Part shown: positions 1,495 through 7,176 of the stretch, piece by piece
Position numbering within the stretch: position 1 is the first letter of the stretch
Layout: each line of letters opens with the position of its first letter
Assembly: GCA_016932575.1 (NCBI GenBank)
Contig: JAFGCO010000067.1
Coordinates: 186,001 to 250,000, forward strand
Direction of reading: 5' to 3'
Length of the DNA stretch: 64,000 nucleotides
DNA from: a bacterium
GTDB lineage: Bacteria > Zhuqueibacterota > QNDG01 > JAFGCO01
Position numbers and translations under genes: made by a program
The notes under the pieces: generated by a model
The model's input: only the letters and a program-made list of their open reading frames with translations
Database searches by the model: none
What the model was told of the DNA's origin: nothing

Positions 1495-2382
1495 TTAAAA
1501 ATTTTGTTTCTGAAATCCTTCAACTTTATCTAATAATTCATTTCGTATTTCATCCTGCTGCCTCAGGTTCACTCGTTTTACAGCTTCCTGCGCCTGATAT
1601 ATATTTCCGAAATAAAATCTTTGTGTTAAAAGAATTGTATATAGTAACGCATCATTCATTCTTCCCAAATCCATCAAGTATCCAGTCAGATAAAAATTCA
1701 GGCCGTTCAGTACGAACGCATTGAACGCATTTCCATATTCTCCGGCATAGATCTGCCCGAGTCCGGGTATAAGTACAGACAGCCATTTCGCCCGCGATTC
1801 AGATTTTGGTTTGATGGAGCCCGCTTTTTTTAACAGATCGACAAATTCTTCATCAGGGCAACTTTGACATCTCTTATATAACATAGAATAATATTTCAGG
1901 GATTTTATCCAATCGCCCTGAGAAATGGCAGAAATCAGCAATAATTGCCCGGCCTGAGCATTTAAACTGTCCTGATGATCCTCGGACCAGTGCTTCAACA
2001 GTATCCTTTGCGCCAAATGACAACGTCCCTGTACAATATAAATTGCAGCTTTTGAAATATGAATACGGCTTCGCATTGTTGAATCATTCGGCATCTGTAA
2101 TGCGAGGTTAAAATAATCCAGTGCATTTTCAAACTGATTCAGTTCCGCATAACAGGATCCGATACGAAAAAATACCCTGGAATGGCACCGACTATCCTTT
2201 TCTAAAAATTGGAAGCGCAGATATTCGGTAATTGCCTGATCATATGCCCCTTCCTTTTCAAACAGGTCTGCGGTGCGAAATACTGAGGAATAAGGAGATT
2301 CCGCGATGAGCCGGCAGACAAAAAGCCAAAAAACAGCGTTCCTAATAGCCCACAGCTTTTTGAATTTGAACCTGAATATCAT
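1495..2382 (-). CDS. TPR-like protein with C-terminal PG-x-G-x-x-Y membrane domain (paralogue A)
   Basis: I start this at ATG 2382 (295 aa), which gives a hydrophobic exported N-terminus (residues 11-27) and a 41-bp overlap with the upstream paralogue; the longer frame to 2523 would overlap far more. Residues about 35-190 are helical and TPR-like (FEKEGAYDQAITEYLRF, IGSCYAELNQFENALDYF). The C-terminal part holds the motif IPGLGQIYAG (205-214), hydrophobic segments, and FGNIYQA at 258-264. The same motifs in the same order occur in the genes at 2342-3247 and 4741-5622, so the three are paralogues. The membrane part resembles DUF5683-type domains. No biochemical role is known to me; an envelope scaffold is the cautious guess. 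Confidence 0.8.
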   Translation of the reverse strand: MIFRFKFKKLWAIRNAVFWLFVCRLIAESPYSSVFRTADLFEKEGAYDQAITEYLRFQFLEKDSRCHSRVFFRIGSCYAELNQFENALDYFNLALQMPNDSTMRSRIHISKAAIYIVQGRCHLAQRILLKHWSEDHQDSLNAQAGQLLLISAISQGDWIKSLKYYSMLYKRCQSCPDEEFVDLLKKAGSIKPKSESRAKWLSVLIPGLGQIYAGEYGNAFNAFVLNGLNFYLTGYLMDLGRMNDALLYTILLTQRFYFGNIYQAQEAVKRVNLRQQDEIRNELLDKVEGFQKQNF

Positions 2383-3247
2383 GATAGACTTGATCCTGCA
2401 GTTGACGATTATAAACACGCACAGCAACAGCTGAACCATAAATATTTCCAAAATAAAACACCGTACTGATTCCCCCGAAAATCCATCCGCGAATCGACTG
2501 CATCCCGTCCCTTTCGAATCCACGGTACGCGTTTAATGAAGCCGCGCCCAATACCATGACAGTTAATATTCCATCTATTGTTCTGTTTGCATACACCTTG
2601 CCAGATCCGGGTAAAAATGCGGACAGCAGGGCGCCTTTGAAGGGGCTTCTTTGCCGATATTTTTTTGGATTTGTCATATACTTCTGAAATAAGATATGTA
2701 TATCCTCCCATTGTGCAGAAGGATCATAGTCTCGAAAAATTATTTCCGCATTCTGCCATCGAAAGAGACATATATTCGTTGCAATTTTTAAAACCATCCA
2801 GGATTCGTCATTCGATAACTTCCCGTATTCACAATGCCTGTCTTCAAAAGGCGTTAGTGCCTTTTCCAGCTGCCGAAGACGAAAGTATGCATAACTGTGA
2901 TGAAACCAGGCTTGTTTGAAAAGGGAGTCGGGTTCCCGGGAAAGTAAAATCAGATCCCGCCAGCACCCAATCGCCTTCTGATATTGACCATCACGAAAAA
3001 AGCATAATCCGATCCTGGATTGAATTTGCGGTGATTTTTCGGTGAGGAACTCATATCTCAAATATTCATTTGCTGCACGTCTGAATTCACAAATATCGTA
3101 TAAATAATCAGCGAAACCAAGGACCTGATCGGCCGCATACACATCTCCGGCCTGTCCGAAACTTTTTCCAAAGAAGCATAAAATGAAAAGTGAAATCGCT
3201 TCGAATCGCTGCAACCGATTATTCTTTAAGCGGTTTAGTGAATTCAT
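2342..3247 (-). CDS. TPR-like protein with C-terminal PG-x-G-x-x-Y membrane domain (paralogue B)
   Basis: The protein has 301 aa with a signal peptide (hydrophobic residues 17-30, followed by GQAG). A TPR-like helical region spans about 40-190, for example FADYLYDICEFRRAANEYL and ALTPFEDRHCEYGKL. The C-terminal domain has LPGSGKVYA (212-220), two or three hydrophobic stretches and FYFGNIYGSAVAV (264-276), matching paralogues A and C. It starts inside the end of the YidD-like gene (29-bp overlap) and its own end overlaps paralogue A by 41 bp, so the three genes are probably translated from one message. The overlap order (YidD-like, then TPR/PG-x-G) repeats at 4741-6059, which suggests the two products work together. 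Function unknown. Confidence 0.82.
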   Translation of the reverse strand: MNSLNRLKNNRLQRFEAISLFILCFFGKSFGQAGDVYAADQVLGFADYLYDICEFRRAANEYLRYEFLTEKSPQIQSRIGLCFFRDGQYQKAIGCWRDLILLSREPDSLFKQAWFHHSYAYFRLRQLEKALTPFEDRHCEYGKLSNDESWMVLKIATNICLFRWQNAEIIFRDYDPSAQWEDIHILFQKYMTNPKKYRQRSPFKGALLSAFLPGSGKVYANRTIDGILTVMVLGAASLNAYRGFERDGMQSIRGWIFGGISTVFYFGNIYGSAVAVRVYNRQLQDQVYHDIQVQIQKAVGY

Positions 3248-3647
3248 AAATGATCACCGGATCAATGGCTTTATTTGATTTTGGATGAAGCTGATAATAG
3301 GACAGCGCTATGGCATTGCACCTTGTTATCCTGTCCGCTGTATATAATGCACCCTTTAATAAGCCCTTCCGCCGAATCGCCATAACCCCAAACTGCGAGC
3401 AGCTGACGTCAAACATGCAGGCAGGTTTGTCCTGTGTGGAAATAAATCTTTGATAGAAAACAATCAAACCGGCAGATACCCACGATTTATTCAACAAAGG
3501 GGAAGTCTCTTGATGATCCTTTTTAAAGGACGGATTTGAAGTTTTTAAACGTTTTAAAGCAAAACCGACCGGATCATTAGCAAATGAACAATCTGCATTT
3601 AAAAAAATTAAAAAAAGCAGGATAAAAATATTTTTGGAAATTTTCAT
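3219..3647 (-). CDS. Exported YidD-like protein (copy 1)
   Basis: This is a 142-aa protein with an export signal (hydrophobic residues 7-23). Residues 60-112 carry the YidD (DUF37) pattern: FYQRFIS (64-70), Cys77, SCSQFG with Cys83, AIRRKGLLKG (90-99) and RITRC ending at Cys110. Canonical YidD is a small cytoplasmic-face protein encoded with rnpA and yidC that aids membrane insertion. This copy differs: it has a cleavable-looking signal and about 60 extra N-terminal residues, and its neighbour is a TPR/PG-x-G gene whose start it overlaps by 29 bp. Its role is therefore probably in the periplasm or at a membrane surface and not the housekeeping one. Family assignment is firm; function is inferred. 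Confidence 0.82.
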   Translation of the reverse strand: MKISKNIFILLFLIFLNADCSFANDPVGFALKRLKTSNPSFKKDHQETSPLLNKSWVSAGLIVFYQRFISTQDKPACMFDVSCSQFGVMAIRRKGLLKGALYTADRITRCNAIALSYYQLHPKSNKAIDPVIIYEFTKPLKE

Positions 3648-3799
3648 ATGAGTCGCATGACAGTTGATATCATAATTTGATCCGATAACGAATCGACCGC
3701 AAGAATCGTTTCCGTCGGGTGATCATGCTTCGGCTGCACAGGTTCATCCGGTATCGTCACATGGTGTTCAAAGGTTGATATCGCCTCAGATCCGCACAT
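3644..3799 (-). CDS. Possible 51-aa ORF coupled to the YidD-like gene
   Basis: A frame from ATG 3799 to TGA 3644 encodes 51 residues. Its stop overlaps the YidD-like start in an ATGA arrangement, typical of translational coupling. A GGAAG six bases before the start could serve as a ribosome binding site. The product is His/Pro/Asp-rich in the middle (DEPVQPKHDHPTE), with no signal peptide and no family I recognise. An in-frame stop lies just upstream, so this is a very small gene, a leader ORF, or the decayed tail of a lost gene. The overlap is the main support. Confidence 0.35.
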   Translation of the reverse strand: MCGSEAISTFEHHVTIPDEPVQPKHDHPTETILAVDSLSDQIMISTVMRLI

Positions 3800-3933
3800 G
3801 CCGGGCTTCCGGTTTTATACCCGAAACAGACCCTCCTTTTGATAAAAAGAAGAACCACTGGATTTATAAACAGACAGGATGCTTTCAATTCTCCTGAACC
3901 GGATCAATTTTTCTTTAAACCATAAAGAAAATT

Positions 3934-3995
3934 GTCATTCTGAGCATTGTCGTATATTGCATCTTTCGCAAATTTTCTATGACGCGCAGAATGAC
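3934..3995. repeat. Imperfect hairpin repeat with GTCATTCTG ends
   Basis: The element begins GTCATTCTGAGC and ends GCGCAGAATGAC, so the 9-base tips are exact inverted copies (3934-3942 and 3987-3995). The interior is degenerate. It lies in the gene-poor stretch between the 51-aa ORF and the small membrane protein. It resembles the better preserved hairpin element at 30857-30947 in its GTCATT..GAG start and AATGAC end. Confidence 0.55.
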
Positions 3996-4043
3996 TTTCC
4001 TTGGTTTTTAGAAATAAACACTAAAAAATTTTTATGTTCCCAT

Positions 4044-4571
4044 TTAAAAATGATACGACAGGCCCACAGTCACAGCCCCATTTTGTTTGATCCCCATTCC
4101 CAACTGTAACGGCTTTGAAATAGACGATTGATAACCGGACACATAAACCGTCTCCCAAGGATCCGTCAATAAACCGATGACATATCCTATCCCACCGGAA
4201 ACAGCCGTCCAGAATATTGAACTGATGATTAAAGGGCCTGTCTCTCCCTCCTCGTCTTCCGTCCCTCCTGCAATAATAATAGCAAGGCAAATGGCCCCGC
4301 AGCCCCCGCCACATCCTGCCGCATATTTGCCTGCTTTTCCCTCTTTGGCTCTGATCATCTGAATATCATCCAGCGGGATGGTTTTCGCCTGACCGCCCGA
4401 AAGGTAGGTTAAAATATTTCCGTCTATCGTTCCTTTTCTCCCTGTAAACATCGAACCGCTTTTGGTCCATACCTTGACCTGTGCATATTGCTGTGCAATA
4501 ACATTTTGACTGAGCATCATAATTAAAATACTCACTGTGCAGAAGCCCGTAATAAACCGTTTAGATCTCAT
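4044..4571 (-). CDS. Small exported or membrane protein, unknown function
   Basis: The product is 175 aa with a signal peptide (hydrophobic 10-25, then AQQYAQ). Residues 30-75 look like a short beta-rich domain (VKVWTKSGSMFTGRKGTIDG, ending in IPLDDIQMIRAKEG). They resemble the small SH3-like segments that read out a setting in secreted proteins, but I do not assign a family. Residues 80-105 are a Gly/Cys-rich hydrophobic stretch (AAGCGGGCGAICLA) followed by an acidic loop and a second hydrophobic segment (118-137). The C-terminus ends in a short beta-strand with a terminal Phe (VTVGLSYHF), as many outer-membrane strands do. The start has a good GGGAGG site seven bases upstream. Confidence 0.65.
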   Translation of the reverse strand: MRSKRFITGFCTVSILIMMLSQNVIAQQYAQVKVWTKSGSMFTGRKGTIDGNILTYLSGGQAKTIPLDDIQMIRAKEGKAGKYAAGCGGGCGAICLAIIIAGGTEDEEGETGPLIISSIFWTAVSGGIGYVIGLLTDPWETVYVSGYQSSISKPLQLGMGIKQNGAVTVGLSYHF

Positions 4572-4591
4572 GTATAATCCTCCCGTTTTAA

Positions 4592-4735
4592 TTAAAGTAA
4601 ATGAAAAAATAGATCAAATTCAATTTTAATCGCTGTTTTTCCTTCTTCCTGTACCGGGATCTGATTTCCCTCCTGTTCACAATCATAACATCCTGGACAA
4701 GCAATGCAGCTGAATTGCGAATATGAAAGCCTCAT
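4592..4735 (-). CDS. Possible 47-aa Cys-rich protein
   Basis: The frame from ATG 4735 to TAA 4592 encodes 47 residues and begins five bases after the stop of TPR/PG-x-G paralogue C. It contains four evenly spaced cysteines, C10-x2-C13-x2-C16-x2-C19 (sequence SCIACPGCYDC), a spacing that could bind a metal or an Fe-S cluster. The rest is unremarkable and there is no signal peptide. No clear ribosome binding site is visible, so it would depend on coupling with the gene before it. I do not recognise a family. Chance is possible at this length. Confidence 0.3.
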   Translation of the reverse strand: MRLSYSQFSCIACPGCYDCEQEGNQIPVQEEGKTAIKIEFDLFFHLL

Positions 4736-4740
4736 CTGAA

Positions 4741-5622
4741 CTAATAATCGATACTGAAAACATCCTTTCTGACTGCATCCAGATACTTTTCTTTTTGTTT
4801 CAGATTATAATAACTCGCAGTTTTTGATGCACCGATAATATTACCCAAATGAAAAATAGCGGTTACAGATAAAGATGCATATGTCGTCAGATAATGATTG
4901 TTATACTTCTTGTCATATTTATATGAAATCCAGCTTGCAAAGGCAAAGGCACCCACATACATAAATGCCTGAATACCATCATAATAATGCTGACAGTAAA
5001 TTTGCCCGCTCCCGGGAATCAGCGTGGATAAAACAGTGGATATCAGAGGGCTTCTTTTTTGAATATTTCGGGCCAACAGCACCCGGTCAGATAGCCTCTT
5101 TGAAATGTCATAGAGTTCTGATTCCGGATATGCTTCGCATATGCTGATATACTTTTGCCGGGCTGTTTCATATTGGCCTTTTTCAATATCCACAAGTGAC
5201 AGATAAAATAAGGAAAATCCCGTATTATCGATTGAGCGCGTTTTATTAAAATAATCTTCGGCCATATTTAAGACTCTGAGTCCATAGTAATTTAAGCCTA
5301 TATAATTATTCGCCTTGATAACATATTCCTGTTCAATATTTTTTTTGTTTAAAAGCAGGGAAGCATATCGAATAGACAATTTATATTTATTGCTTTTCAT
5401 ATAGGCTTTCGAGATATTCAGCAGACAATTGTTTTTAATTTCATCATCGGTTGCGTAATAATGTATTTTTTTATATTCTGATATTGCCCTGAAAAAATCG
5501 TGGCTTTTCATTAAATAATCAGCATAGCTCAGTGAGTCTTGTCCAAATATATTCATATTCTGCGTCAGGATGAACAGGATGAAAACCGGAGTTAAAGTAC
5601 GGCCGCACAACTTAATATTCAT
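4741..5622 (-). CDS. TPR-like protein with C-terminal PG-x-G-x-x-Y membrane domain (paralogue C)
   Basis: The 293-aa product has an N-terminal signal (residues 10-28) and TPR-like helices from about 32 to 185 (YADYLMKSHDFFRAISEYKK, ISKAYMKSNKYKLSIRYASL, IEKGQYETARQKYISI). The C-terminal domain has RSPLISTVLSTLIPGSGQIY (190-209) and HLGNIIGASKTASYYN, both aligning with paralogue B (RSPFKGALLSAFLPGSGKVY; FGNIYGSAVAVRVYN). The start ATG overlaps the stop of the second YidD-like gene by four bases (ATGA), so the pair is translationally coupled. Base use is more AT-rich than in paralogue B, which argues for an old duplication or separate acquisition. Function unknown. Confidence 0.82.
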   Translation of the reverse strand: MNIKLCGRTLTPVFILFILTQNMNIFGQDSLSYADYLMKSHDFFRAISEYKKIHYYATDDEIKNNCLLNISKAYMKSNKYKLSIRYASLLLNKKNIEQEYVIKANNYIGLNYYGLRVLNMAEDYFNKTRSIDNTGFSLFYLSLVDIEKGQYETARQKYISICEAYPESELYDISKRLSDRVLLARNIQKRSPLISTVLSTLIPGSGQIYCQHYYDGIQAFMYVGAFAFASWISYKYDKKYNNHYLTTYASLSVTAIFHLGNIIGASKTASYYNLKQKEKYLDAVRKDVFSIDY

Positions 5623-6059
5623 TTATTTTTCACTCCCAAAAGAAAAAACGAATCATCCAGTTTTAATATGCCTTCTTTATTCTCACGCAATTCATAATGA
5701 TAAAAACATGCGATGTTCTCCCGGTAAAAATTTCTGTCAATAAAATAGCAAATCCCGATGAGTAATCCGTACTTTTCTATGGCAAGATATGCGTAATTTG
5801 AGCAGGAAATATAAAAAGGACACCGGCTGATTGATTTTGTGGATATTTTCTTTTGATAAAACTTGATTGCATTAAATGACAATATAGTCAGGGGGTCTCT
5901 TTTAATATCATGAATCACAGAATAAGAGGAGTATATTGGTTTAATATCATCCGGTTCCCAGGGTGAAAATTCAACATACTCCTCTTGTGCATATATATTA
6001 AAAGAGCAAAATAATGATATCAATAAAAAAATGTAACATATATGCATGTATTTCTTCAA
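5619..6059 (-). CDS. Exported YidD-like protein (copy 2, divergent)
   Basis: This 146-aa protein has an export signal ending near YAQ (residues 23-25). The YidD core is recognisable at 62-110: KFYQKKIS (66-73), Cys80, SCSNYA with Cys86, and AIEKYGLLIG (93-102). The Arg-Cys position that closes the family motif in copy 1 is not kept; RNFYREN stands there. It forms a four-base overlapping pair with the TPR/PG-x-G gene downstream, the same order as copy 1. The start here is TTG 6059, giving a Lys-Lys signal N-terminus; ATG 6047 is an alternative. Probable paralogue with an envelope role linked to its partner. Confidence 0.7.
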   Translation of the reverse strand: MKKYMHICYIFLLISLFCSFNIYAQEEYVEFSPWEPDDIKPIYSSYSVIHDIKRDPLTILSFNAIKFYQKKISTKSISRCPFYISCSNYAYLAIEKYGLLIGICYFIDRNFYRENIACFYHYELRENKEGILKLDDSFFLLGVKNK

Positions 6060-6065
6060 ATTATT

Positions 6066-6614
6066 TTAAAAGAAAAGCGTAACGCTCACAAAGGGTCTGA
6101 AACCAATTAACGAAGCGCTTACATCATCTTTTGTAAAATCCTCACCTTCATCTTCAACCAGCCGGTCAAACAATTCATCATAGGCATCCGCATAATAGGT
6201 AAATCCTCCGGATATTACGATTGGCTTTTTAGGTTTGCCTGAGATGTTATAATCAACACCGATACCGATCCCTGTCTTCATAATCGTATCATAATTGGCG
6301 CCTAATTTTAAACCCAACCGGCCTTTTTCTTCTTTATTCAGTGCGATATTCAATTTTGCGCCAAATGTGCCGGACAGGTAAAACTTGGTATAGGTTTCAT
6401 CACCGCCATAACCGCTGCCAATCACAGTGATCTGCCAAATCACCAGAATGGGAGTTACGCCTCCTCCAATTTCAAGTTTTACTTTCTGCGTCCCGAATTG
6501 GGCAAGCAGTCCGGTACCATATTCAGTTCCCAAATTAAAGCCGACTCCCGCCTGACCATAAGAAAATGTTGATAAAACGACAAGTATAAGTGCCGCAGCG
6601 AATAACTTTTTCAT
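6066..6614 (-). CDS. Small outer-membrane beta-barrel protein
   Basis: From ATG 6614 the product is 182 aa. This start has a strong AAAGGAG site eight bases upstream and gives a standard signal peptide (MKKLFAAALILVVLSTFSYG, then QAGVG). The mature part alternates Gly and aromatic residues in short strands (VGFNLGTEYGTGLLAQFG, KLNIALNKEEKGRLGLKLGA, GIGIGVDYNISG) and ends in a terminal Phe (FVSVTLFF), the usual beta-barrel signature. The size suits an eight-stranded barrel. It lies seven bases before the YidD-like copy 2 and could share its transcript. No specific family is recognised. Confidence 0.7.
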   Translation of the reverse strand: MKKLFAAALILVVLSTFSYGQAGVGFNLGTEYGTGLLAQFGTQKVKLEIGGGVTPILVIWQITVIGSGYGGDETYTKFYLSGTFGAKLNIALNKEEKGRLGLKLGANYDTIMKTGIGIGVDYNISGKPKKPIVISGGFTYYADAYDELFDRLVEDEGEDFTKDDVSASLIGFRPFVSVTLFF

Positions 6615-6687
6615 TGTATAGACTCCTTTATTTTCGATAGTCAATATAAATGAAGGCTCCAGCTACAATCAGACATTTTTATTTGAC

Positions 6688-7176
6688 TTAAGACTGTATC
6701 AAAGGGATTACGATTGTTCGAAGCTCCCCATCAAAATCAACGGCTTTTAACACAGCGTAAATCTCTTTTGTGTTCTCACCAATTGAAGCGGTTACCAATG
6801 ATACATTGATTTCTCCGGGTTCCAATTTGTACATGGCGCCATTCGCAGCGTCGATAATCAAACCAAGAACGCCTCCACAAATCAGGTTGCCAAGATAGGT
6901 CGGATCAAATTCTTTGTTTATCTGTACCATTGATTCCTGATATCCATCAAGATTGATCTTGACGGTGTATGCACTTTTCCGTTGCAATGTGGCAGTTGTC
7001 GGAGTTTTGCCGGTAAATACTGTTGCACCCCCATCATTCGTAATAGACACATCAGCTGCCTGAGGACTGGAAGAAATAATGACGTCCTGTTGTGTACCAT
7101 GAATAATAGAAGCGCAATTCATCAGTACCAGAGAAACTGTAAGAATTGCGATGATTAAAAAATACTTCTTATCCAT
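6688..7176 (-). CDS. PEGA-like lipoprotein
   Basis: This is a 162-aa lipoprotein candidate: a hydrophobic signal with LMNC, the cysteine at residue 21. Residues 30-85 fit a PEGA-type surface domain (VIISSSPQAADVSITNDGG, GKTPTTATLQRKSAYTVKI, DGYQESMV), a small beta domain often found in envelope proteins. A Gly-rich hydrophobic segment near 95-112 (NLICGGVLGLIIDAANGAMY) resembles the C-terminal hairpin of many PEGA lipoproteins. A purine-rich GGAAAGGGG lies just before the start. It is the first gene of the leftward envelope cluster, so its promoter must lie in 7177-7784. Confidence 0.7.
   Translation of the reverse strand: MDKKYFLIIAILTVSLVLMNCASIIHGTQQDVIISSSPQAADVSITNDGGATVFTGKTPTTATLQRKSAYTVKINLDGYQESMVQINKEFDPTYLGNLICGGVLGLIIDAANGAMYKLEPGEINVSLVTASIGENTKEIYAVLKAVDFDGELRTIVIPLIQS

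Follow-up and report, generated by a model that had tools for sequence, protein, structure and literature searches.

Exported YidD-domain proteins and their paralogous TPR membrane partners in a conserved, probably dedicated, bacterial envelope module

Few small bacterial proteins are as widespread as YidD; what it does biochemically is poorly understood. In Escherichia coli, YidD is reported to assist YidC-dependent membrane insertion (Yu et al. 2011, as cited in PMC8082313). LolA (PF03548) is the closest known counterpart of a second protein considered here; Bacteroidota also possess LolA3 (PGN0947, structure 9tp6), a paralogue reported not to pair with LolB (PMC13103446). This study concerns a 64,000-nucleotide stretch of contig JAFGCO010000067.1 (positions 186,001 to 250,000, assembly GCA_016932575.1), hereafter the window, which encodes two YidD proteins predicted to be exported, each overlapping the gene of a partner with tetratricopeptide repeats (TPR). 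The preliminary description had treated each such pair as a unit; the tight coupling stands, but the conserved unit proves larger and runs S - (LolA-like) - exported YidD - A - B, where S is a small hydrophobic protein and A and B are paralogous partners. No description of such an operon was found in the open-access literature (subscription papers lay outside this scope, and an earlier description is possible). Within that literature, YidD and LolA occur together in a single paper, a transcriptome study of Leptospira that, judged by its title and abstract, is not about an operon of this kind, and DUF5683, a Pfam family that the partners match below cut-off, is mentioned in one unrelated paper.

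The six window genes considered here lie on the minus strand and follow one another, in order of transcription, as YidD (5619-6059), partner (4741-5622), a small open reading frame (ORF; 4044-4571), YidD (3219-3647), partner (2342-3247) and partner (1495-2382). The YidD at 3219-3647 (Y1; 142 aa, PF01809 E 3.1e-16, TIGR00278 60.2 bits) has a signal-like N-terminus and a C-x5-C-S core. Its gene overlaps by 29 bp that of partner A, which comprises a signal peptide, a TPR-like part and a C-terminal PG-x-G-x-x-Y / FYFGNIYGS membrane domain (partner profile 318.9 bits). Partner B has the same architecture (306.7 bits); its longest ORF spans 1495-2523, and in the start-codon listing the ATG at 2382 is the most plausible start, giving a signal peptide. 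Y2 (5619-6059; 146 aa, PF01809 E 5.7e-11, TIGR00278 49.8 bits) is a second, divergent exported YidD, joined by an ATGA overlap to a divergent, A-like partner (276.9 bits). Both YidDs score above the curated PF01809 and TIGR00278 thresholds (40 bits for TIGR00278) and each carries a hydrophobic signal-like segment at its N-terminus, so the ORFs and domain scores bear out the earlier recognition of two signal-bearing YidD-pattern proteins, each overlapping a partner. The window partners have TPR matches above or near Pfam cut-offs; their best DUF5683 score is 23.2 bits, under the gathering score of 26.7 bits.

Exported YidDs share with canonical YidD a domain above the curated cut-offs and a nearly intact motif core (FYQ..IS, C-x-F-x-P-S-C-S, R-x-x-R-C), but differ in bearing a signal, in an N-terminus longer by 20-90 residues, in SSQD and DRLxRC signatures, and in lying away from rnpA and yidC, tied to A and B, with a canonical copy kept separately in the genome. 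Four YidD domains were found by a search of the whole genome to which the window belongs: a canonical one (L001) overlapping rnpA, the two in the window, and one in L003, a 463-residue protein in which YidD continues into a TPR and PG-x-G domain, a natural YidD-partner fusion. The rnpA-adjacent slot is filled by L001 and not by the window copies, which are therefore not the sole YidDs of the genome, a possibility that the preliminary description had raised against its own proposal. Each non-canonical YidD of this genome has a partner beside it or fused to it, and the genome's four full-length partner domains all lie with such a YidD. Among 19 other system-bearing genomes, 18 have a canonical-scoring YidD (>93 bits) separate from the exported one (57-80 bits); the remaining genome, G095, has two exported-type copies only, perhaps owing to incompleteness. 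Residues C77, C83, S84 and R106 (numbering of 3219-3647) are invariant in 55/55 exported YidDs and C110 is present in 47/55, while Y2 retains only the first two cysteines of the core. A simple heuristic signal-peptide rule, by which export is predicted, was satisfied by 53 of 72 exported YidDs as against 2 of 31 canonical controls, and in both of these controls the hydrophobic segment continues into the YidD core; signal-bearing YidD homologues, which the preliminary description had suggested seeking, thus extend beyond the window.

YidD scores across 82 genomes of the phylum form two groups, canonical (>90 bits, short) versus low-scoring and longer. In seven further genomes, inspection of the neighbourhoods of the low-scoring group showed one or two partner genes behind an exported YidD. 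Full-length partners (>200 bits with the partner profile) occur in exactly 8 of the 82, all with an exported YidD; the next-best match in the phylum, at 73 bits, covers TPR only. In genome G047 (L039:5899-6429) the exported YidD is fused to a short hydrophobic tail that has PG-x-x-Q but no TPR part, and depending on how it is counted the genomes with exported YidD number 8 or 9. A full-length LolA-like protein is found in five of the eight partner genomes and nowhere else among the 82. The first S family occurs in the same five, plus one genome where the S match runs off the contig end. The remaining low-scoring YidDs (G041, G043, G076, G077, G078, G081) have neither signal nor partner. Four of these (loci L045-L048, from G078, G081, G076 and G077) represent a further non-canonical YidD class without a signal peptide (RRRRCLFRESCS...RCRPGYGF), and each locus also has a gene for a small protein bearing DGEAHFD-x-x-PG-x-G-x-(I/V)Y.

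The pairing extends well beyond this phylum. Baited solely with the A-type partner, a search of named genomes retrieved 80 loci, on which custom YidD, LolA-like and partner profiles, trained on a few loci, were iterated. These partner-anchored loci bear on the adjacency of exported YidD and a PG-x-G TPR gene, a question posed at the outset: of the 76 loci long enough to judge, 72 have an exported YidD beside the partner or fused to it, and they span about a dozen phyla. Partner B was found in 55 of 68 assessable loci, and 54 of 69 have a LolA-like gene. YidD and A are most often spaced by -4 or -1 bp, and the LolA-like gene and YidD by -7 bp. Record titles name KSB1, Poribacteria, Cloacimonadota, Zixiibacteriota, WOR-3, Latescibacterota, Ignavibacteria, Kapabacteria, Krumholzibacteriota, Bacteroidota, Eisenbacteria and Geobacteraceae; the titles of Bacillota and Actinomycetota bins are probably misnamed metagenome-assembled genomes. 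One locus without an adjacent YidD (L079, Spirochaetales) comes from a genome with an exported YidD elsewhere. The YidD and A genes have fused at least four times (L003 in the window's own genome, L083, L088 in Krumholzibacteriota and L164 in WOR-3), and cultured strains of Emticicia aquatica and E. aquatilis carry the complete S-LolA-YidD-A-B set. Given pairing across about a dozen phyla, a separate canonical YidD and repeated fusion, the gene order therefore represents a dedicated envelope module, as had been suspected from the window, and this conclusion is well supported.

Two features of the wider neighbourhood may be recorded alongside. In Ignavibacteria (L096, L102, L104, L115) YidD-A-B lacks both LolA and S and immediately follows an acyl-CoA-dehydrogenase-like gene, with a 28 bp overlap in two to three cases. 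A phage or defence origin of the module was considered and rejected: no PHROGs or PADLOC matches were obtained, and one partner query found no plasmid copies.

A tree whose loci represent about a dozen phylum-level groups places A and B proteins apart, each kind in its own cluster. The window protein at 2342-3247 falls with A and that at 1495-2331 with B proteins of other phyla; the third paralogue noticed behind the first pair is therefore present as the B subunit of the first unit, and not as an extra duplicate. The partner at 4741-5622 lies outside or at the base of A, together with G033 and the fusion partner from the same genome, so the second pair is an old divergent form. Two pairs are thus real, as had been described, but recent duplication of one pair is rejected by the deep divergence of the second. 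A and B resemble DUF5683 (PF18935) and TPR proteins in possessing a PG-x-G-x-x-Y helical membrane domain and a TPR part; they differ in scoring below the gathering threshold, in forming two fixed paralogues beside YidD, and in that the subfamily occurs in the phylum only with exported YidD. Their TPR part is likely periplasmic, with the C-terminal PG-x-G helical hairpin as a putative membrane anchor. A structural model of the YidD-A fusion (predicted template modelling score 0.64) has confident TPR and helical C-terminal domains joined by a linker with a predicted local distance difference test (pLDDT) score under 50, and its PDB matches are generic TPR proteins, including BamD. On the 5' side of the second pair, positions 6066-7176 (minus strand) encode two products, an exported protein that is small and barrel-like, and a lipoprotein with a PEGA domain (LEPBI_I2678-like match 24.8 bits, below cut-off) and a hydrophobic segment rich in Gly; these genes are possibly part of the divergent second unit.

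Clustering of flanking genes revealed two recurring small-protein families directly upstream of the unit, in 27 and 18 loci, here called S. Both have two Gly-rich hydrophobic segments and a signal peptide (some with a lipobox; some Poribacteria copies without a signal), and they are related to one another (hhalign probability 92.9, E 3.8e-7). An S gene precedes the unit in 48 of 52 LolA-positive loci versus 0 of 12 LolA-negative loci (Fisher p 5.5e-10). Its copies, numbering one to four per locus, are diverged: one is present in 33 of the 52 loci and two to four in 15, while the rest of the unit is mostly single copy. The window ORF at 4044-4571 similarly encodes a small exported protein with a signal peptide, a short soluble part and two Gly-rich transmembrane segments (AAGCGGGCGAICLAIIIAG; LIISSIFWTAVSGGIGYVI). 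Among the fetched loci it has one strong relative, L088:4841-5395 (37% identity over 175 aa, E 5e-36), which sits 24 bp upstream of the Krumholzibacteriota YidD-A fusion; in the 82 phylum genomes its sole full match is the window copy itself. From this relative and the S-like layout, the window thus appears to hold a LolA-less version of the module with its own S-type protein. Membership of this ORF in either main S family found no sequence support; it forms a family with L088. No Pfam family was found for the two main families or for the ORF.

S varies further in individual lineages. In Latescibacterota (L081:4027-4860, L090:3881-4801) a CsgG-like protein (PF03783 E 1.5e-15) carries a fused S domain at its C-terminus. 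WOR-3 S proteins (L063, L067, L073, L062) extend beyond the second transmembrane segment into long Cys/Ser/Gly-rich tails (GSSCGSSDGSSCGSS), and in Poribacteria (L066, L068) the operon is preceded by as many as four or five S-like genes, several of whose products lack a signal peptide.

The LolA-like protein is supported as having a LolA fold by modelling and profile comparison. The AlphaFold2 model of a relative (pLDDT 92.8) has LolA proteins as its best Foldseek matches (E 5e-12, TM 0.47-0.58), and the family profile matches LolA structures in the PDB (E 2.6e-5). The Pfam LolA model reaches E 0.01 in 4 of 27 members (best 4.8e-7). The family resembles LolA and Bacteroidota LolA3 (PGN0947, Fjoh_0605; PMC13103446, PMC11885536) in its modelled fold and periplasmic signal, but is a distinct subfamily, tied to S and YidD, with no LolB or LolCDE neighbour; the search for those genes covered the locus flanks, where none recurs. 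Identity with LolA3 was considered and is not supported, a sequence profile search giving no LolA3 match at E up to 1.

How might such a module work? Judged from sequence, all its products would enter the Sec pathway. We tentatively favour S as the client, with the LolA-like carrier and an A/B-bound exported YidD delivering or inserting its hairpin from the periplasmic side. S or S-like proteins would have their hydrophobic hairpin, or an attached lipid, shielded in the periplasm by the LolA-like carrier; A and B would hold the exported YidD through their TPR part; and YidD would help to place the hairpin into a membrane from the periplasmic side, mirroring cytoplasmic YidD with YidC. LolA-less versions, as in the window, would handle a different S-type client without a carrier. 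That YidD serves its partner, and the manner in which it does so, we infer. It is possible, if doubtful, that the module amounts to an unrecognised machine in about a dozen diderm phyla, one that would move signal-bearing alpha-helical hairpin proteins out of the periplasm and into a membrane, perhaps the outer membrane, with exported YidD as insertion factor and the LolA-like protein as chaperone.

Several observations weigh against the client proposal. We know of no biochemical precedent for YidD insertion activity outside the cytoplasm, and no solved structure was found among YidD relatives. The fusion model yields no reliable YidD-A interface. No LolA-like gene of this family was found by searching the window's own genome, the window included, and several LolA-less loci of Poribacteria and Ignavibacteria have no neighbouring S. 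Mean identity is the same for S and the LolA-like protein (0.27), so rapid client evolution is not supported. Finally, S could be a subunit instead of a client.

This last point leads to the main rival, a lipid- or lipoprotein-moving complex, which we regard as unlikely though credible: S, YidD, A and B would be permanent subunits of one membrane complex moving or modifying a lipid or glycolipid carried by the LolA-like protein. The lipid binding established for LolA folds, the close tracking of LolA by S and the prevalence of single-copy S (33/52) all agree with it. The two to four diverged copies of S in 15 loci suit a client better, however, as does the finding that the LolA-less loci of the window and of Krumholzibacteriota have, in place of S, a family with no detectable homology to it; nor does any enzyme or transporter gene recur in the neighbourhood.

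Improbable, in our estimate, is an exported YidD with no insertion role, acting as a small disulfide-stabilised domain that holds or matures A, so that the pairing would reflect assembly of A. The C-x5-C cysteines are indeed invariant (55/55) and located where disulfides can form, and YidD is repeatedly fused to A alone; yet the canonical motif core is nearly intact despite the change of compartment, and the association with S and LolA would be left unexplained. We give still less credence to a variant Lol route in which the LolA-like protein carries lipoproteins and YidD, A and B form the acceptor at the outer membrane or surface. Such a route would fit the LolA fold and the lipobox-like start of some S proteins (Emticicia, ...VLASCQKKEY), but most S proteins lack a lipobox, no LolCDE or LolB recurs in the flanks, Pfam LolA is found in just 4 of 27 LolA-like members, and LolA is missing from 15 of 69 YidD-A loci with enough upstream sequence. 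That the pairing is merely incidental gene order, as the restriction of exported YidD to 8 or 9 of 82 phylum genomes and the differing neighbours outside the unit might suggest, is scarcely credible and is rejected: the pairing is kept by 72 of 76 loci from about a dozen phyla, fusion has occurred at least four times, and 8 of 8 partner genomes have an exported YidD.

In this conserved exported branch the YidD domain is set apart from YidC and the ribosome, and is fused or coupled to a defined partner and coupled to a candidate client. The exported YidD module is therefore a tractable system for learning what the YidD domain does, and its cultured Emticicia hosts make it open to gene-removal tests. 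If insertion from the periplasm is true, the module would provide a route for helical membrane proteins that have no known machinery.

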